Assembly: GCA_022563535.1 (NCBI GenBank)
Contig: JADFNE010000028.1
Span: 1 to 54,984 of the forward strand
DNA length: 54,984 nt
Origin: Myxococcales bacterium
GTDB lineage: Bacteria > Myxococcota_A > UBA9160 > UBA4427
Direction: 5' to 3'
Positions 35,887-46,445 of this stretch are shown here, in pieces. Position 1 is the stretch's first letter. Each line of letters opens with the position of its first letter. Made by a program: the position numbers and the translations under genes. Below the pieces are notes generated by a model that was given only the letters and a program-made list of their open reading frames with translations, was not told the origin of the DNA and ran no database searches.

Positions 35887-38800
35887 TCAACTCGCGATGA
35901 TATCGAGATCGTCGGAAATGGGAACCAATTCGGCATCGCCGCCAGGGTCTGAGCGATCGACGGTTTCACGCTCGCGTCTGCGGAAGAACTGCAGCCAGTC
36001 ATCCAGAATGACATAGCCACACGGCACCAGGAACAACGTCATGATCGACGCGTAGAGCACGCCATATCCCAACGAGATCGCCATGGGGATCAATGGCCGC
36101 GCGGGAGCCGCCTCTTCGAACATCAAGGGCAGAAGACCCAGATAGGTGGTGACAGAGGTCAGCGCGATGGGCCGGAAGCGCTGAATGCTCGCCGTGGTAA
36201 CGGATTCGAGGAAGCCCATTCCTTGGTCGCGTCGTCGGTTGATCGTATGCACCAGGACCAGGGACGCATTCACGACGACTCCGGACAGAGCCACGATCCC
36301 GAGAATCGAAAAGAACACGATGTCCCAACCCATCAGGAAGTGTCCCAAGATGGCGCCGACCGCTCCAAAGGGAATTACACTCATGATGATGAAGGGCTGG
36401 ACATAGGACTTGAGCGGGACTGCAAGCAAACCGTAGATGATCAACAGCGCGAGCAGAGCGCCCCGCATCAGGCCGAGCATTGCCTCGTGGTGATGCTCTT
36501 GTTCACCGCCCAACCGGTAGGTCACGCCTGGAAACTCGGCGAGCAGCTCGGGAAGCTTCTCTTGGACGCTTGCCAAAATCATCTCGGGCGTTGCGATGGC
36601 TCGGTCGACATCGGCGGTCACGGTGACGACGCGCTGTCGATCCGTGCGCTGGATTGTCGCAAATCCCCGGGTCAATTTGACGTCCGCTACGGCGGCGAAC
36701 GGTACTTCAACGCCTTCTGATGTTCGGATGCGCATGTCGTCGAGTGAACTGAGGGAAAGGCGCTCTGCTTTCGGATACCGCACCATGACGCGGACTTCGT
36801 CTCGGCCTCGTTGAATGCGCTGAACTTCTTCTCCATGAAACGATTGGCGAACCTGGCGTGCGAGATCCTGCTGGGTGATGCCAAGCAACCGAGCTTCGTC
36901 GCGCAGGGCGAGCTGGACTTCCTGCTTGCCCGCGCGAAACGAGTCGGCGATGTCCGATATGCCGACATAGGTGGCGAGTTCGGCCCGGAGCTTCGCGGCC
37001 GCCCGCGCCAACGTTTCAATCTCGCCACCCCGGAGTTCGATGTGGATCGGTATTCCCACCGAAAATGACATCACGTTGAACGACAACTCGACTGCGTCTG
37101 GCACCGGACCACTGAGCTCCCGCCAGCGCTTGGCCACGTCCACCGACTCGATTTCTCGCTCCATCGCCGAGATCAGTTCCAAGCCCACCTCGGCGATGTG
37201 GCTGCTTCCCGCATTGGCATCGGGCGGTTGTGGCCCCTCACGTGCCAACCGGTCGCCGATTGAAACCAAAACGTGGGTAATCACTGAGGAGCCTGGAGTC
37301 GACTCGTCGAGTTCGAGCTTCAAGCGGGCAGCCGCGTCCTGGAGCTGGGCGACGGCGGCTTCAGTGCGCTCGAGGGGAATGCCCTGGGGCATCGTCAAGG
37401 TGGCGTAGATCATGTCGCCATCCATCGGTGGAAAGAACTGATACCGCATACGCCCGCTCGAGAAGAGCGCAACGGTCAGGATCAGAATACCTACGGCGCC
37501 CGCGCAACTCGCGTAGCGCCAGTCGATAGCCCGGTCGAGCAAGTTCCCATAGCCATTGCGAGCGAACCGCTCCAAACCATTTGCCATGCCCTGCTGAAAC
37601 TTTTGCCAGCGCGCTACCAACGGGTTGGGCTGGCCGTGTTTCGACGATGTGCGTCGGTGGGCGAGATGGGAGGGCAGGATCAGCTGCGATTCGATCAATG
37701 AAAAAACCAGGCAGATGATTGCCGCGTACCCGATCACTCCGAAGAACTGGCCCATGCTTCCCGGCACGAGAATCAGGGGCAGGAACGCCGCCACCGTCGT
37801 CATGACGCCGAAGGTCACGGGAACGAAGACTTCCAGGGTTCCGTCGATCGCCGCATCTTCCTGGGACTTGCCCATTTGTTCGTGGGAGTGGACGCTTTCG
37901 CCGATCACGATCGCGTCGTCGACGAGAATGCCCAGCACCAGGATGAACGCCATCACTGTGAGGGTCGAAATCGAGATGTCATTCGCGGGGAACAGCATTA
38001 CCGCGCCGAGCAACGAGATGGGGACACCGGCCGCCACCCACATGGCGAGCCGAAAGCGCAGGAACAGCGTGAGAACCAGGAGTACCAGGAGAATGCCGCT
38101 GCGGGCATTGCGGGTGAGCGCCTCGAGACGGATTACTAGGTCAGCTGCTTCGTTGTTGAAGATCAGCACTTCGACGCCTTCGGGTACCGACGCCAAGAAC
38201 GAGTCCACCCAACCTTCGACGTCCCCGGCCGCTCTGAGAATGTCCTCATCTCCGATCAAACTCACCTCTACAATGAGAGCCGGTCGACCGTTGAACTGGG
38301 CCCGCAAATCGGAGTCTTCGAAGCCGTCAACGATCGTGGCAATCTCGCCGAGGCGAACCAGGGTGCCGTCGTTGCGGGTCAAGACGATGATTTCTTCGAA
38401 CTCAGCCCCTGCGTACGCCTGTCCGATGGTGCGCAGCAGAATCTCGCCACCTCGGGTCTTGACCGACCCACCCGGCAGATCGAGCGATGATCCCCGTACC
38501 GCGTGGGCAACCTGATCGATCGTGAGGCCGTGTCGCCGCAGGGTGTCTTCCGAAATCTCGATCGAAATTTCGTAGCTTCGGTCGTACTTGAGTTCGGCCT
38601 GGGACACGTTCGGGAGGTCGGCAATTTCGTCCCGCGCGCGTTGGCCCAACAGCTTCAGGTCGCGTTCGTCCACATTGCCGGAGATCGCCACCTGAAGCAC
38701 TTTTCGCTTCATGACGAGCTTTGAGATCACCGGTTTTTTGGCATTCGCTGGAAACGTATCGATGGCGTTGACCTTGCTTTTGATTTCGCTGACGGTGGCA

Positions 38801-39108
38801 TCGATATCTGCACCCACCACCAACTCCAGCGTAACCACACACGCGTCCTCGACGGCCCGGGTATTGATACGCAAGATGCCTGGCGTGCCGTCGATCTCCT
38901 CTTCGATGCGGAGACAAATGGACTCTTCGATTTCGGCCGGCGATGCGCCCAGATATTCGACGGTGATCTGGGCGGCGTCGGTATCGATTGCTGGGAACTC
39001 TTCCTGACGAATGGTCGGCAGGGTGAGGAGCCCTCCGGTGACCATCAGGAACATCAGTAGATTGGCCGCGACCGGATTGTGGACGAACCACGCGATCATG
39101 CGACTCAC
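35887..39108 (-). CDS. RND efflux pump inner-membrane transporter
   Basis: This is a 1073-residue protein with the twelve-segment AcrB/MdtB plan. It starts MIAWFVHNPVAANLLMFLMV and has large periplasmic loops after segments 1 and 7. The proton-relay Asp pair is in LGILVDDAIVIGESVHSHE. The opening FVHNPVAANL and lack of heavy-metal motifs place it with hydrophobic-compound exporters rather than CusA types. It works as a trimer with the adjacent adaptor. Its ATG overlaps the adaptor stop (ATGA). No outer-membrane TolC-like gene is in the window, so it must use one encoded elsewhere. Confidence 0.92.
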   Translation of the reverse strand: MSRMIAWFVHNPVAANLLMFLMVTGGLLTLPTIRQEEFPAIDTDAAQITVEYLGASPAEIEESICLRIEEEIDGTPGILRINTRAVEDACVVTLELVVGADIDATVSEIKSKVNAIDTFPANAKKPVISKLVMKRKVLQVAISGNVDERDLKLLGQRARDEIADLPNVSQAELKYDRSYEISIEISEDTLRRHGLTIDQVAHAVRGSSLDLPGGSVKTRGGEILLRTIGQAYAGAEFEEIIVLTRNDGTLVRLGEIATIVDGFEDSDLRAQFNGRPALIVEVSLIGDEDILRAAGDVEGWVDSFLASVPEGVEVLIFNNEAADLVIRLEALTRNARSGILLVLLVLTLFLRFRLAMWVAAGVPISLLGAVMLFPANDISISTLTVMAFILVLGILVDDAIVIGESVHSHEQMGKSQEDAAIDGTLEVFVPVTFGVMTTVAAFLPLILVPGSMGQFFGVIGYAAIICLVFSLIESQLILPSHLAHRRTSSKHGQPNPLVARWQKFQQGMANGLERFARNGYGNLLDRAIDWRYASCAGAVGILILTVALFSSGRMRYQFFPPMDGDMIYATLTMPQGIPLERTEAAVAQLQDAAARLKLELDESTPGSSVITHVLVSIGDRLAREGPQPPDANAGSSHIAEVGLELISAMEREIESVDVAKRWRELSGPVPDAVELSFNVMSFSVGIPIHIELRGGEIETLARAAAKLRAELATYVGISDIADSFRAGKQEVQLALRDEARLLGITQQDLARQVRQSFHGEEVQRIQRGRDEVRVMVRYPKAERLSLSSLDDMRIRTSEGVEVPFAAVADVKLTRGFATIQRTDRQRVVTVTADVDRAIATPEMILASVQEKLPELLAEFPGVTYRLGGEQEHHHEAMLGLMRGALLALLIIYGLLAVPLKSYVQPFIIMSVIPFGAVGAILGHFLMGWDIVFFSILGIVALSGVVVNASLVLVHTINRRRDQGMGFLESVTTASIQRFRPIALTSVTTYLGLLPLMFEEAAPARPLIPMAISLGYGVLYASIMTLFLVPCGYVILDDWLQFFRRRERETVDRSDPGGDAELVPISDDLDIIAS

Positions 39109-40286
39109 GAGCGTGTCTCCCGGTCCGGTGCTTCATCGTCGGCTATCGGTATCACCCGCATGCCGTCCACTACGACCTGAAGCGGCGAGACACAGAGGCG
39201 CTCACCTGGTTCCAGCGCTCCCACGATCAGCACGTCATCGCCGTCAATTCGCAGGATCTCGACTTTGCGCTCGCGCAGTCGATCTTCGCGGTCAATCACG
39301 AGGATGTGGTCCTGATCGCGCATCGCGTAGCGAGGAACGATGATGATGTTTTCCACAACAGGGCCCTCGATCTCGGCTTGCACGAACAAACCAACCGTGA
39401 GGGGCGGCTTGTCTTCGTTTCCCGGTTCGACCGCATAGGGATCTGCGACCCGCGCGATTACGTGCACCATGCGGCTCTTCGGATCAATTTCGCCCTCGGT
39501 GCGGACCACGGTCCCGCGCCAGGTGTGTTCCTTGCCTGCGAACCGCGCGCGCAGATGCACGGTGGGGAACTCGACGTCTGCGGCCATGGGATGGCGCGGA
39601 AGATCGAGGTACGCGAGCTGGTAATCCGCGATCGGCAAGCGAATCTCCGCGTAGTCGGTTGCGTATAGAGTTGCCACCGATGCGCCCGGGCTCACGACTT
39701 GCCCGACATCGACTCGCTCTTCGCGCACCCGCCCGTCATACGGCGCTCGAATTTCGGTTCGTTCGAGATCCCACTCGGCTTGCTCGAGTGCGAGCTTGGC
39801 GTCGGTAAGGTTGGCTCGTGCCACCTGATCATTGCGCCGCGCCTCACTGAGCTGCACCGCACTGGCGACGCTTCGGGCCGACAGGCTCTGCTGGCGCTCG
39901 AGTTCGTCCGCTGCAAACTCGACTTCGCTCGCGGCACGCGCCACGGCCACCCTCGCTCGCGCCACAGTCATGTTGTAGCCACGCTGTTGAATGCGAAGCA
40001 GCGCTTCACCTTCTTTGAAGAATCCACCCGACACCAGTACCGGTGATACCCACACGACTCGCCCCGAAACCTCCGGCACCAACGTGCTCTCGGTGCGCGG
40101 AGCGACGGTTCCCTGGGTGCGCACGAGCATCTGCACGCTCTGGGGTTGTGGATCGCGGACCCTTACCGCGGTCACCGCGTGCTCGGGGACGATGTTCTCG
40201 ACCGAAGGCGCAGTGGCGACCAGGAGAAAGGCTCCCAGGCTGGACAAAATCAGGACGAGCGCAGGTACCAGCAGTTTCTTCTTCAC
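39105..40286 (-). CDS. RND periplasmic adaptor (membrane fusion protein)
   Basis: This is a 393-residue HlyD/AcrA-like protein. An N-terminal membrane anchor (LLVPALVLILSSLGAFLLVA) is followed by the beta-barrel/lipoyl halves (VAPRTESTLVPEVSGRVVWV and IRAPYDGRVREERVDVGQVVSPG) around a coiled-coil hairpin at about 110-170. Later segments (GLFVQAEIEG, VPRYAMRDQDHILVID) match the membrane-proximal domain. It links the pump to an outer-membrane channel. It overlaps both the regulator upstream and the pump downstream by four bases, so all three are translated together. Confidence 0.9.
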   Translation of the reverse strand: MKKKLLVPALVLILSSLGAFLLVATAPSVENIVPEHAVTAVRVRDPQPQSVQMLVRTQGTVAPRTESTLVPEVSGRVVWVSPVLVSGGFFKEGEALLRIQQRGYNMTVARARVAVARAASEVEFAADELERQQSLSARSVASAVQLSEARRNDQVARANLTDAKLALEQAEWDLERTEIRAPYDGRVREERVDVGQVVSPGASVATLYATDYAEIRLPIADYQLAYLDLPRHPMAADVEFPTVHLRARFAGKEHTWRGTVVRTEGEIDPKSRMVHVIARVADPYAVEPGNEDKPPLTVGLFVQAEIEGPVVENIIIVPRYAMRDQDHILVIDREDRLRERKVEILRIDGDDVLIVGALEPGERLCVSPLQVVVDGMRVIPIADDEAPDRETRS

Positions 40287-41008
40287 GACGACATCCTTTC
40301 CAGGGACAGGCGCTCTCGTTCATTCGTCATGGCCGCAATGGCGTGGATTCGAAGTTCGAGGGTTAGTTCAATTACCGCGTCTGACGCGGCTGCTCCGTCT
40401 TTCGCATCGATCGCCTCTGCGAGCTTGTCGAACAAGGCTTGATTCGGAGAAATCGGAGGTAGGAGGTGCGGGTGGCGCCTGTCGAGCTCTTCAATGAAGC
40501 CGGTCTTGACGCCTCTCCGCACCAACGTCAACACGAGATTGTCGCTGGCCTCTACGAAGAGATCGACGAGTTGATGCATGAGTTCGATGTGATCGGGGTT
40601 GGAAAGCTTCTGCTTGGCTCTGGCGAGAAGCTTGTGGATATCGACTCGCTGCTGTTCGGTGGCGCGTTCGGCGCACAATCGAGCGGCCGTGCTGAACAGC
40701 CCGCTCATCACCTCAAACACCTGGTCGACAATTTTGGGATCGGGGGGATCTTCGAGATTGATCAGGTGTTCGACGACGTCGAGGCTGGCCTCCTCGATCG
40801 GCGCAACCCGTGCTCCGCCGGGATGAATTTTGGCGACCCCGAGTTGCTCCAGGCGTTTCAACGCCTCGCGCACCGCTCCTCGGTGCACTCCAAAGCGTTC
40901 GGCCAGATCTCGCTCGGAGGGCAGGCGTTCTCCGCAGCGATACTGGCCGCGCAGAATTTCGTCGCGCAACTCCGCAGCGATTGCCGCGCTTCGAGAAATC
41001 GATTGCAT
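40283..41008 (-). CDS. FadR-subfamily GntR transcriptional regulator
   Basis: This is a 241-residue protein. The winged helix is at about 1-75 (ELRDEILRGQYRCGERLPSE, then RFGVHRGAVREALKRLEQLG). The C-terminal all-helical FCD domain (about 85-235) binds a ligand, often with a metal held by Asp and His residues. As first gene of the operon, overlapping the adaptor gene, it probably represses the pump and itself until an effector binds. The palindrome TTGGTC-T-GACCAA about 100 bases upstream fits the FadR-type operator pattern and is the likely site. Confidence 0.88.
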   Translation of the reverse strand: MQSISRSAAIAAELRDEILRGQYRCGERLPSERDLAERFGVHRGAVREALKRLEQLGVAKIHPGGARVAPIEEASLDVVEHLINLEDPPDPKIVDQVFEVMSGLFSTAARLCAERATEQQRVDIHKLLARAKQKLSNPDHIELMHQLVDLFVEASDNLVLTLVRRGVKTGFIEELDRRHPHLLPPISPNQALFDKLAEAIDAKDGAAASDAVIELTLELRIHAIAAMTNERERLSLERMSS

Positions 41009-41303: not shown

Positions 41304-41804
41304 TCAGTATTCCGGAACGTAGATCTCGCATGCGAGCTTGTCCCCGCCAGCGATCACCAGCAGGCGACCGAGAGCGAGGTATTGGCCGATCATCATGCCC
41401 AGTTCCGCGATCTCAGCATCTGCAAAGCACTTGCGAAGTTCCGCTTTGAAGGCCGAATCCACGGTCCGAAAGTCTGTTGCGAGCTTCTCTGCGAAGCGCA
41501 CAGCCAGGGCCTCCCGGGGATCGAGTTTGCGCTCTGCTTCGGGCAAGTGAATCTGTGCAATGGTCTCTTCGTCGAGTCCCTGACGCGTCGCCGACGCGTA
41601 CCGAGCGAACAGTCAGGTGTCGCATCCATTGAGGGCGGCAATCTTGAGGCGTGCGAGCTCCTTGATGCGACAGGGAACGACTCCCTCCAGATGTCCTGGG
41701 CGGAAGAACTCGAAAAACCGGGCGAAGTGCTCGGGGATGAGCTCCATGAGGTTCAGGCTTTCATCGGCGGGATTCGAGTTCGCGATGGGTTGCATGCTGT
41801 CCAT
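41304..41804 (-). CDS. Putative selenoprotein: AhpD/CMD-like with CxxU redox motif
   Basis: This is one 166-residue protein when the in-frame TGA at 41613-41615 is read as selenocysteine; ordinary calling splits it. The start is ATG 41804, five bases after AAGGAG. The carboxymuconolactone decarboxylase/AhpD-like region runs RIKELARLKIAALNGCDT, then U64, then LFARYASATRQGLDEETIAQI, and on to an intact helical C-terminus (EALAVRFAEKLATDF). The TGA falls exactly where the second Cys of the CxxC redox pair belongs (C61-x-x-U64). A hairpin with a GGC loop follows at SECIS distance. The gene ends with another TGA. A Cys-to-stop mutation is the alternative, but the hairpin and intact downstream frame argue against decay. 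Confidence 0.75.
41583..41599 (-). promoter_or_regulatory. Candidate bacterial SECIS element
   Basis: Reading the minus strand, a perfect 7-bp stem ACGCGTC-GGC-GACGCGT starts 13 nt after the TGA, so 20 nt separate the TGA from the apical loop. The loop starts with G. These features fit the bacterial SECIS model: a stem-loop just downstream of UGA, with a G in the first two loop positions. It lies within the coding region, as in other bacterial selenoprotein genes. Confidence 0.7.
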
Positions 41805-41989
41805 GTTGACTCCTTGCAGCACTGGGGTTCGGCCCGAAAGTGTATCAACCCGCAAATCGGGTTGCCCGCGCCGGAGATTCTCAACCCAGCCCGATCGATA
41901 TTTGTATATATAGAAGCAAGAGTTGCACTCGGGTCTGCGCAGGCCTCCCCAAGCGGCTCATGGCAAGACCCAGAGCGACTCCGACTGTC

Positions 41990-42709: not shown

Positions 42710-43507
42710 ATGAACTGGATGGCTCCCCCGAATCGCTATGTGGCTATATGCGCGGCGCTTCTTCTCTCTCTGGTGGTTGTCCCCGTGGCAGCTCTGTCGG
42801 AACCGCTCAACGAAGCCAAGTCGGTCCGCCGTCAGGGCAACGTCGACGGCGCCGAATCGCAAAAGCGAATCGATACGGTGAGCGCCGAGACCGAGAGTTT
42901 GTTCACGCAATATCACAATGCGTTGGCGCAGATCGATTCAATTCGCATCTACAACGGTCAGATGAAGAGATTGATCAGCGACCAGGACAAGGAGATCGCG
43001 TCGCTGCGGGAACAGGTGGATCGTGTCGAGGTGGTCGGCCGCAGCGTCACCCCTCTGATGCTTCGCATGATCGAAGCCATTGCCGCGACCGTGGAGCTCG
43101 ACATTCCGTTTCTCGCAGATGAACGTGCCAAGCGAATTGCGGACCTGCGCGAGTTGATGGGCCGGGCCGACGTGAGCAACGCTGAGAAGTACCGACAGAT
43201 CATGGAGGCCTATCAGGTGGAGAACGAGTACGGCCGCACGATCGAAGCCTACCGCTCGACCTTGGAGGTGAACGGCGTTGAAGTGAAGGCCGACCTGCTT
43301 CGCTTCGGCCGCATCGCCCTCGTGTATCAGACCCTGGATCAAAAATCGGCTGGGGTGTGGAACCAAAAACTTGGCGTTTGGGAACCCCTTGATGCCGGTT
43401 ACCGATCGGCGATCAAGGAAGGACTCAAGATTGCGCGCAAGCAAATGGCGCCGGATCTGATCCGGTTGCCACTCCCAGCCGCCCGGGCTCTGGGAGGAGC
43501 AAGCTGA
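42710..43507 (+). CDS. DUF3450 periplasmic protein of a TonB system
   Basis: This is a 265-residue protein. A signal peptide (YVAICAALLLSLVVVPVAALS) is followed by a coiled coil at about 48-110 (SLFTQYHNALAQIDSIRIYN, QDKEIASLREQVDRVEVV) and a globular C-terminal part (TIEAYRSTLEVNGVEVKADLLRFGR split over about 185-250). DUF3450 proteins are regularly the first gene of TtpC-type TonB clusters and act in the periplasm, possibly linking TtpC to the cell wall. The ATG follows AAAAGGAACGAGC. Its stop and the next start overlap by one base (TGATG). Confidence 0.88.
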   Translation: MNWMAPPNRYVAICAALLLSLVVVPVAALSEPLNEAKSVRRQGNVDGAESQKRIDTVSAETESLFTQYHNALAQIDSIRIYNGQMKRLISDQDKEIASLREQVDRVEVVGRSVTPLMLRMIEAIAATVELDIPFLADERAKRIADLRELMGRADVSNAEKYRQIMEAYQVENEYGRTIEAYRSTLEVNGVEVKADLLRFGRIALVYQTLDQKSAGVWNQKLGVWEPLDAGYRSAIKEGLKIARKQMAPDLIRLPLPAARALGGAS

Positions 43508-44898
43508 TGCGCGCAGCTACAACGACTCGGTTGCTGATTTGCAACATGGCTCTGGCAATAGTCTTCGGCTTCGCGGCGGTGTCGACCGCGCAAGACCAGC
43601 CCAAGTCCCCCGAACCCAAGACCCTCGAAGAATTGCTCGAGATGGTGAAAGAGGGTTTCATTGCCGAATCCGACGACAACGCCGCGCGCGAGGCGCGGTT
43701 TCTGGCGGCTCGGAACGATCAGCAACGCCTGCTCGACGATGCCCTCGCAGTGCTTGCTGGCGAGGAAGCGATCAGCCAGGCCCTCGAATCCACCTACAAC
43801 GACAACGAGCCCTTGATCGGCACGCTCCAGGAAACGTTGACAGAGCGCCTGGGACAGATGGGTGAACTCTTTGGTGTCGTGCGTCAGGTCTCGAACGATT
43901 TGAGTGGGCAGGTCTGGGAATCGCTGACGAGCTCACAGCTCAGCGATCGCACAATACTTCTCGACAGACTCGGTCGCAGCAAGGAACTCCCGTCGACCAA
44001 GGATCTCGAAGGTCTCTGGTTCGAAATGCAGCGGGAAATCACCGCCCAAGGCGAGATCGAACGTTTCGTCACGACGGTTTTGACTACAAAGGGAGGCGAG
44101 GTCGAGCGCGAGGTCGTCCGAGTGGGTCCGTTTACCGTGATTTCGAATGGCGGCTACCTCTTGTGGGATCCCAAAGCACAACAGCTGGCAGAGCTACCGC
44201 GCCAACCTCCTGCCAAGTACCTCGACACTGTGGAGGGTTTCGAGACGGCCACCACCGGTTTCGTCAAATTGGCGGTCGATCCATCAAAGGGCGCACTGCT
44301 CGAATCCCTGCTCGAAACACCGAGTCCGCGTGAACGCGTCGAACAGGGCGGTGGCGTCGGTTACGTGATCATCTGCCTCGGTGTGGGGGCATTGCTCGTG
44401 GGTGTCTGGCGCTGGTTCCTGATCTCCGCGACCAGTCGCAAGGTCAGGGCCCAGCAGAAGAGTAGTAGGACCAGCTCCGACAACCCGCTCGGTCGCATCT
44501 TGGTGATCCCCGAAGCTTCGAAGGACATGGACAGTGAAGTGCTCGAGCTGAGGCTCGACGAGGCGGTGCTCAAGGAAAGCAGTGATCTCGAGCGCTACCT
44601 GTGGGTGGTCAAGACGGTCTCGGTCGTATCGCCGCTGCTCGGCCTGCTCGGCACGGTGACGGGCATGATCAAGACCTTCCAGTCGATCACGTTGTTCGGC
44701 GCCGGCGATCCCAAGATGATGGCGGGGGGTATTTCCGAGGCTCTGGTCACCACGATGCTCGGGCTCATCGTCGCGATTCCCCTGGTGCTGCTCTACGACA
44801 TACTCAGCAACAGTGCCAGTCGCATTATCGACATTTTGGATTATCAGAGCGCAGGCCTGATCGCGTCACGAGCGGAGGGGATCGATGTGGGAGATTGA
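43507..44898 (+). CDS. ttpC: TtpC-like long ExbB/MotA-TolQ-ExbB family protein
   Basis: This is a 463-residue protein. The signal peptide (LLICNMALAIVFGFAAVSTA) and a periplasmic region of about 270 residues precede the membrane part. That part has three segments: VGYVIICLGVGALLVGVWRWFL, then VVSPLLGLLGTVTGMIKTFQS, then ALVTTMLGLIVAIPLVLLYD. This ExbB core with a large N-terminal extension is the TtpC type known from Vibrio TonB2 systems. It starts within the stop of DUF3450 and overlaps the second ExbB gene by 14 bases. It should bridge the TonB complex to the periplasm. Confidence 0.88.
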   Translation: MRAATTTRLLICNMALAIVFGFAAVSTAQDQPKSPEPKTLEELLEMVKEGFIAESDDNAAREARFLAARNDQQRLLDDALAVLAGEEAISQALESTYNDNEPLIGTLQETLTERLGQMGELFGVVRQVSNDLSGQVWESLTSSQLSDRTILLDRLGRSKELPSTKDLEGLWFEMQREITAQGEIERFVTTVLTTKGGEVEREVVRVGPFTVISNGGYLLWDPKAQQLAELPRQPPAKYLDTVEGFETATTGFVKLAVDPSKGALLESLLETPSPRERVEQGGGVGYVIICLGVGALLVGVWRWFLISATSRKVRAQQKSSRTSSDNPLGRILVIPEASKDMDSEVLELRLDEAVLKESSDLERYLWVVKTVSVVSPLLGLLGTVTGMIKTFQSITLFGAGDPKMMAGGISEALVTTMLGLIVAIPLVLLYDILSNSASRIIDILDYQSAGLIASRAEGIDVGD

Positions 44899-45439
44899 GG
44901 CCTTCGCAGCCGTCCGCGGGTTCATTGAAACCGGCGGCAATGTGCTGCTGGTCATCGCCTTCGTGACGGCCACGATGTGGACCCTGATCATCGAGCGGAT
45001 CTGGTACTTCCGCCTGGGATATCGCGTCGATGCCGCAAGGATCGAAGCCTTCTGGAATGCCCGGACTGACCATTCGTCGTGGAACGCGCACATGCTTCGC
45101 GAACTGCTCATGTCTCGAATGGAACTCAAGCTGACCGATAGCTTGAGCATGATTCGCACCTTGGTCGCCGTGTGCCCGATGCTCGGCCTGCTCGGCACCG
45201 TGACCGGCATGATCGAAGTATTCGATGTGATGGCCAGCGGCGGTGGCAACACCCGTGGGATGGCGGCCGGCGTGTCAAAGGCGACGCTCCCCACGATGGC
45301 TGGCATGGTGGCCGCTATATCTGGGATGCTGCTCAGCACCCAGCTCGATCAGTTCGCCGATGGCGAAACATCTCGAGGCCAAGATAGCCTCGAGATCATT
45401 CACACTCCAAAGCGAGATCGAGAGAGTCATGCGACGTAG
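44885..45439 (+). CDS. exbB: ExbB-like proton channel subunit
   Basis: This is a 184-residue MotA/TolQ/ExbB protein. It has three membrane segments: FIETGGNVLLVIAFVTATMW, then VAVCPMLGLLGTVTGMIEVF and TMAGMVAAISGMLLSTQ. It forms the pentameric proton channel of the TonB motor with ExbD. It is much shorter than the TtpC-like paralogue upstream. It starts at GTG 44885, inside the previous gene, and overlaps ExbD by 11 bases. Confidence 0.9.
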   Translation: MWEIEAFAAVRGFIETGGNVLLVIAFVTATMWTLIIERIWYFRLGYRVDAARIEAFWNARTDHSSWNAHMLRELLMSRMELKLTDSLSMIRTLVAVCPMLGLLGTVTGMIEVFDVMASGGGNTRGMAAGVSKATLPTMAGMVAAISGMLLSTQLDQFADGETSRGQDSLEIIHTPKRDRESHAT

Positions 45440-45833
45440 AAGAAACAAACACAGACCGGAAAACGAAGTCAACCTGACCCCAATGCTCGATGTCGTGTTC
45501 ATCATGTTGATCTTCTTCATCGTTACGGCATCGTTCGTGAAGGAGTCGGGGATCGAGATCACTCGGCCCAGTGCGGCGACCGCCACGCGCAACGAAAAGG
45601 GCAATATCCTGATTGCCATCACCAGCACCAATCAGGTGTGGATGGATCGCCGACAAATCGATCCCAAGGCGCTGCGCGCGAACATCGAGCGAATGCGCGC
45701 GGAAAACCCCAACGGCGCAGTAATTATTCAAGCCGACGAAAAGAGCGAAAACGGCTTGCTGGTCAAGGTCATGGACGCCGCAAGGCTCGCCGGAGTCAAG
45801 AGCATTTCCCTCGCGGCCGAGATCATCAAGTAA
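45429..45833 (+). CDS. exbD: ExbD-like biopolymer transport protein
   Basis: This is a 134-residue protein from ATG 45429, the usual ExbD length; the frame is open further upstream but only inside exbB. A basic N-terminus (MRRRRNKHRPENEVNLTPML) leads to one membrane helix with the essential proton-carrying Asp (LDVVFIMLIFFIVTASF). The periplasmic domain follows (NQVWMDRRQIDPKALRANIE). It overlaps exbB and abuts tonB (stop TAA then ATG), so all are translated as a unit. Confidence 0.9.
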   Translation: MRRRRNKHRPENEVNLTPMLDVVFIMLIFFIVTASFVKESGIEITRPSAATATRNEKGNILIAITSTNQVWMDRRQIDPKALRANIERMRAENPNGAVIIQADEKSENGLLVKVMDAARLAGVKSISLAAEIIK

Positions 45834-46445
45834 ATGATTTCGCGGCTTCCGCTCGCGCTCGTGATTGCTTGCGTGGTCACGTTCGGTCTGTTTTGGACCA
45901 TGCAGGCGCTAGTGAGTACCGACGCGCAACTGATCGACAGCAAGCCGTCGCCCAAGATCGAGTTTGTGCGCTTGCGTCGCGACACCACGCCCGAGATCAA
46001 GAAGCGCGAGCCTCCCAAGCGACAAAAACCCGAAGAAGCTCCGCCTCCGCCGGAAATCAATGTGTCCAAGGCCAGCCTCGAACCTTCGGGAGATCTATCG
46101 GCATTCACCGCAAACTTCAACGCGGGTGATGCGCTCGTGGGCGGAGTCGGCATGGGCAGTGGGTCGGATCGGGACGCTACACCGCTGGTGCGGATCGAAC
46201 CCGAGTATCCAATGCGAATGCGCCAGCGAAGAATCGAGGGCGCCGTTGGAATCACCTTCACAATTGCAAAAGCCGGTACGGTAAAGGACGCGCAGATCGA
46301 TTATTCGCAACCTCCCGGCGTATTCGACAAGGCCGCTCTAGCCGCTGTACGCCGTTGGCGTTACAACCCAAAAATCGTGGATGGCAGGGCAGTCGAACGT
46401 CCGGGTCAGAAGGTCTGGTTCCCGTTCTCGATGGAGGACAAGTAG
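45834..46445 (+). CDS. tonB: TonB energy-transducing protein
   Basis: This is a 203-residue protein. A single N-terminal membrane helix (LPLALVIACVVTFGLFWTMQ) is followed by a Lys/Pro-rich spanning region (KKREPPKRQKPEEAPPPPEI). The C-terminal domain starts at about 118 (VRIEPEYPMRMRQRRIEGAV) and has the family ...FDKAALAAVRRWRYNP ending. It carries proton-motive energy to outer-membrane receptors such as the one at 51134. The spanning region is short for TonB, as in TonB2-type proteins that rely on TtpC. Confidence 0.9.
   Translation: MISRLPLALVIACVVTFGLFWTMQALVSTDAQLIDSKPSPKIEFVRLRRDTTPEIKKREPPKRQKPEEAPPPPEINVSKASLEPSGDLSAFTANFNAGDALVGGVGMGSGSDRDATPLVRIEPEYPMRMRQRRIEGAVGITFTIAKAGTVKDAQIDYSQPPGVFDKAALAAVRRWRYNPKIVDGRAVERPGQKVWFPFSMEDK

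Follow-up and report, generated by a model that had tools for sequence, protein, structure and literature searches.

A predicted bacterial SECIS hairpin behind an in-frame TGA in a CMD/AhpD-fold gene of an uncultured Myxococcota-type bacterium

An in-frame TGA and the hairpin that follows it

A short inverted repeat lies just 3' of an in-frame TGA on contig JADFNE010000028.1 of a Myxococcales bacterium (54,984 nucleotides, the whole stretch analysed here and hereinafter the window), raising the question of whether this TGA ends a gene or is read as selenocysteine (Sec) under the direction of an RNA element embedded in the coding sequence. ORF calling by standard rules breaks the gene at 41804-41304 at this internal codon. 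Read through, the frame encodes a predicted selenoprotein of the CMD/AhpD fold (41304..41804, minus strand; 166 residues) with an ATG start, a C-D-T-U motif, and a terminal TGA stop, and direct reading finds a Shine-Dalgarno sequence (AAGGAG; 41810..41815, minus strand) 5 nt 5' of the ATG. The partner Cys of the CxxU motif, C61, has a TGC codon (41622..41624, minus strand) that is invariant in the alignment, while the in-frame TGA (41613..41615, minus strand, i.e., 41615-41613 in reading direction) takes the second position of the C-D-T-U motif as the predicted Sec residue, U64.

The preliminary description had placed a perfect 7-bp stem with a GGC loop at 41583-41599, and direct reading confirms it: the 17-nt inverted repeat ACGCGTC-GGC-GACGCGT is present exactly there on the minus strand, with the 5' arm at 41599-41593 (ACGCGTC), the loop at 41592-41590 (GGC), and the 3' arm at 41589-41583 (GACGCGT). 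The stem starts 13 nt and the loop 20 nt 3' of the TGA. The codons under the hairpin are TAC GCG TCG GCG ACG CGT (Y-A-S-A-T-R); the residues given earlier, R-Y-A-S-A-T-R-Q, hold for these six, the outer R and Q lying on its flanks.

The published model of the bacterial SECIS element (bSECIS) has a stem of 4-16 bp, an apical loop of 3-9 nt with a G in its first two bases, then usually G or U, a distance of 16-37 nt from the UGA to the apical loop, and a minimum free energy (MFE) at or below -7.5 kcal/mol (PMC13188914). The hairpin falls within these bounds, with its 7 bp and 3 nt, a GGC loop whose first base is G in 81/81 relatives (see below), a spacing of 20 nt in a register shared by those 81, and an MFE of -9.1 kcal/mol (z -1.9) for the isolated 17-nt hairpin. 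Its pairing is further maintained by covarying changes in Sec genes and missing from Cys genes, and the element thus agrees with the model in every respect that can be judged from sequence. The initial suggestion that its location and loop base suit recognition by SelB is therefore in keeping with the published rule (PMC13188914), and selB is present in the same genome. The element resembles that of E. coli fdhF in being a stem-loop directly 3' of the UGA, within the coding sequence and with a G-rich apical loop (PMC13188914 and general knowledge). It differs from the fdhF element in having a GGC loop of 3 nt and seven stem pairs without interruption; the E. coli stem has a bulged U that the window hairpin lacks.

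Taken as a single sequence, the hairpin has to be weighed against the possibility that the TGA is a real stop, the locus then holding two short ORFs, a pseudogene, or a sequencing error, and the palindrome reflecting chance or GC codon bias. Perfect 7-bp/3-nt hairpins do arise by chance (n=4 in the 55-kb window), and in this GC-rich context the surrounding 38-51 nt fold with a z-score near 0. A hairpin of at least 7 Watson-Crick pairs obeying the bSECIS spacing and loop rule follows 7 of the 1,625 TGA triplets in the window (0.43%), and a perfect Watson-Crick stem results from 4 of the 4,608 synonymous encodings of YASATR (8 if GU is counted). The earlier judgment that a chance origin is unlikely hence stands, with moderate force, for the single sequence; folding energy by itself is not decisive, and the comparative evidence is. 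An Rfam search of the window returned no family above threshold, which weighs neither way. A scan of the window for other in-frame TGA genes with bSECIS-like hairpins gave four candidates, all weaker, with stems of 5-6 bp; one of them, at plus 19673, looks like an ordinary gene end.

The stem among TGA- and TGC-encoding relatives

Relatives were gathered from a GTDB contig scan (75) and, beyond these, from searches of whole genomes across the family, class, and phylum. Every relative alignable at this site has either TGA or TGC, with no other codon seen: an identically placed TGA occurs in 81 distinct genes from at least four phyla, and TGC in four. The frame through the TGA is open in all 81, with coding conservation both 5' and 3' of it. 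In their gap-free alignment from the TGA, the seven stem pairs are formed in 98.1% of cells vs 66.3% in shuffles, and both-side changes affect all seven pairs (221 cells vs 86.5), these shuffles of the counting tool ignoring relatedness. Relatedness is accounted for by controls with the partner slid by 1-3 bases, which score 0.025-0.162 for covariation against 0.898 in register, and by a count on the protein tree, where one parsimony reconstruction gives 29 pair-type changes, including about 16 double compensatory changes and 4 via G-U. Compensatory changes that keep the stem, which the preliminary description had proposed as a check, are accordingly seen among the TGA relatives. The stem types include ACGCGTC/GACGCGT, ACGCGCA/TGCGCGT, ATGCGCA/TGCGCAT, ACGCGCC/GGCGCGT, TTTCCATC/GATGGAAA, TTCTGCA/TGCAGAA, and CTCCTGCA/TGCAGGAG, all in a constant register. 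In 11/81 Sec genes, the pair at one end of the stem, outermost or innermost, does not form, which would fit 6-bp stems or larger loops in these.

The silent sites over the stem tell the same way. Synonymous diversity among 33 close orthologues averages 0.06 over the six stem codons vs 0.48 in 62 other well-conserved codons, and the sixth stem residue, when Arg, is always encoded by CGT, a minority Arg codon elsewhere in these genes. When the protein sequence is held constant and synonymous codons are drawn at the frequencies seen in these genes, 4.1 of the seven pairs are expected in Sec genes as against 6.9 observed, and 2.2 in Cys genes as against 3.0 observed. Residue changes over the stem are themselves linked, S-A-T having changed to Q-A-A separately in two branches and to P-A-A in a third, and they appear to follow the RNA pairing. 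The same-place TGA in at least four phyla with coding conservation on both sides, and a stem that covaries to a degree codon resampling does not explain, speak against a real stop; the joint conservation of the TGA, the downstream frame, and the stem refutes it, and we consider a pseudogene or sequencing error extremely improbable.

The fate of the stem where Cys replaces Sec was followed in four distinct TGC homologues, representing about three independent lineages. The stem is gone in 4/4, with 42.9% of cells paired, equal to the shuffled value, so that the loss of the stem foreseen for Cys-containing homologues is indeed found. One of them (L114), from a genome (G029) of the same family as the window, is 68% identical and nested in the Sec clade, with the surrounding branches well supported and its own branch long; it is best read as a probable change from Sec to Cys followed by decay of the stem. 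Its genome still has selA. In a second genome (G035), two forms of the gene coexist: L131, which has TGA and the stem, and L027/L130, which has TGC and no stem. The third Cys lineage comprises two Sphingomonadaceae sequences.

These data also bear on whether the palindrome might act, in addition or instead, as a DNA operator, an mRNA stability element, or a translational pause, with Sec insertion using something else. The sequence is palindromic, and pairing alone would be compatible with a DNA-binding role; yet the sequence changes wholesale between lineages while the pairing, the register relative to the TGA, and the loop G stay, and the stem is lost together with the TGA. For these reasons, an RNA signal decoded jointly with the UGA is favored over an operator, and we regard these other roles as very improbable.

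Selenocysteine machinery and the proposed mechanism

The genome to which the window belongs (97.9% complete) encodes the full Sec machinery, namely selA, selB (with GTPase domains and the RNA-binding winged helices PF09106/PF09107), selD, and a tRNA-Sec with anticodon TCA (tRNA-Sec(UCA)); across the class, selA occurs in 84/90 genomes. The selB ORF directly follows serS, the two overlapping or adjoining (L001, contig C31 of this genome, 373-3613, minus strand). As serS makes Ser-tRNA, the substrate of Sec synthesis, this linkage may be meaningful. SelD of this genome (L085, contig C15, about 56143-57069) has an in-frame TGA of its own in LVPAGGU, followed by the hairpin GGGCCTG-GGT-CAGGTCC with the GGT loop about 27 nt downstream; SelD is hence likely itself a selenoprotein, as predicted from these features, and its hairpin a second bSECIS in this genome.

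A further reading of the TGA is an alternative genetic code, in which it would be an ordinary amino acid throughout and the hairpin unrelated to it. Such a code accounts for the open frame with TGA read as sense, but the gene's own end is a TGA, the neighboring genes are normal under table 11, and the aligned residue is always Cys in homologues without the TGA. That TGA also terminates this very gene, and that the genome has the full Sec machinery, refutes this alternative, the probability of which we put as vanishingly small.

We conclude that the hairpin is almost certainly, to judge from its comparative record, the bSECIS element of a selenoprotein gene, directing Sec at the UGA. In the proposed mechanism, the mRNA would form the 7-bp stem with its GGC loop 20 nt after the in-frame UGA, and SelB with GTP and Sec-tRNA(UCA) would bind the loop and deliver Sec at the UGA in place of termination. 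That SelB binds and that Sec is inserted we infer from what is established for bacteria and from the bSECIS rules as published (PMC13188914). The product would be an AhpD/CMD-fold protein with the C-D-T-Sec motif in its active site, and probably works as a thiol/selenol redox enzyme.

Protein family, predicted chemistry, and gene neighborhood

The read-through protein scores 33.7 bits with PF02627 (cut-off 23, E=3.6e-8), and its AlphaFold model (pLDDT 86.7) finds P. aeruginosa AhpD as its best PDB match (7xw1; Foldseek E 8.4e-5; TM-score 0.85 on the 7xw1 chain), placing it among the CMD/AhpD-like proteins. With M. tuberculosis AhpD and P. aeruginosa PA0269 (2ijc, 7xw1), it shares the fold, a Glu placed 12 residues ahead of the first Cys, and the C-x-x-C/U pair (PMC3141380). 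The relay of M. tuberculosis AhpD consists of Glu118, Cys130, His132, Cys133, and His137 (PMC3141380), of which the window protein keeps the Glu and first Cys, has Sec in place of the second Cys, and has both His replaced: His137 by Arg (R68) in every aligned member, and His132 by Thr (T63) or another non-His residue. The subfamily thus departs from the AhpD proton relay in having Sec near an invariant Arg where AhpD has the relay His. Thiol/selenol redox chemistry is likely for the product, while a role as AhpC adaptor or peroxidase is uncertain. One tentative proposal, to which we give rather less than even weight and hold as doubtful, is that the RNA pairing and not protein function drives the SAT to QAA/PAA changes, and that the subfamily catalyzes a reaction other than the peroxide/adaptor type, e.g., a reductive dehalogenation like that of its fold relative Bmp8.

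The Sargasso Sea and GOS surveys reported AhpD-like/CMD-domain CxxU selenoproteins (PMC1088965, PMC2398784), and a 2026 review lists them (PMC13188914); such proteins have been known since 2005, and the window gene adds a member. They have in common with it the PF02627/AhpD fold, Sec as the second residue of CxxU, and a bSECIS immediately 3' of the UGA whose small loop contains G, the likeness to the 'AhpD-like 2' and 'CMD-like' selenoproteins being one of description. Other Sec-containing AhpD relatives are the (seleno)proteins of the NCBIfam models NF053654 (GroundWater_YciW), NF041047 (GSU3128), and NF041238 (AhpD_rel_CFYUT). No NCBIfam model was matched above its cut-off by the window protein. 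All 38/38 aligned members do match NF053654 (best E 2.9e-21), but the window protein, at 34.6 bits against a cut-off of 310, does not belong to GroundWater_YciW, nor, at 18.7 bits, to another of these models, which has a 110-bit cut-off. Since it lies so far below these cut-offs, its subfamily appears to have no NCBIfam model of its own.

A second, more distant CMD/AhpD-like set with an in-frame TGA occurs in the same class (L116, L118, L135, L136, L137, and L138) and carries CHVU, CGFU, and CNLU motifs. One of these (L138) has a perfect stem, TTGCCTT-GGC-AAGGCAA, in the register of the window gene, and four others (L118 and L135-L137) have stems in a shifted position; one genome (G027) holds a total of three TGA copies.

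Comparison of the neighborhoods of the relatives found no neighbor gene conserved across lineages, and the neighborhood consequently gives no clue to function or substrate. In the window, genes for an AcrB-type efflux pump, an HlyD membrane-fusion protein, and a GntR/FCD regulator adjoin the selenoprotein gene (35887-41008, minus strand), and a row comprising DUF3450, two MotA/ExbB genes, and a TonB C-terminal gene (42710-46442, plus strand) is likely a TonB-energizing operon.

The gene at 41804-41304, which standard annotation would cut in two at its TGA, can now be assigned. The subfamily offers an unusually clean comparative case for a bacterial SECIS in uncultured Myxococcota-type bacteria and marine Pseudomonadota. 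Its naturally occurring Sec and Cys counterparts, which coexist in one genome, form a ready test set for the contribution of Sec to the fold, and for the extent to which an intragenic RNA signal can steer the sequence of the protein.
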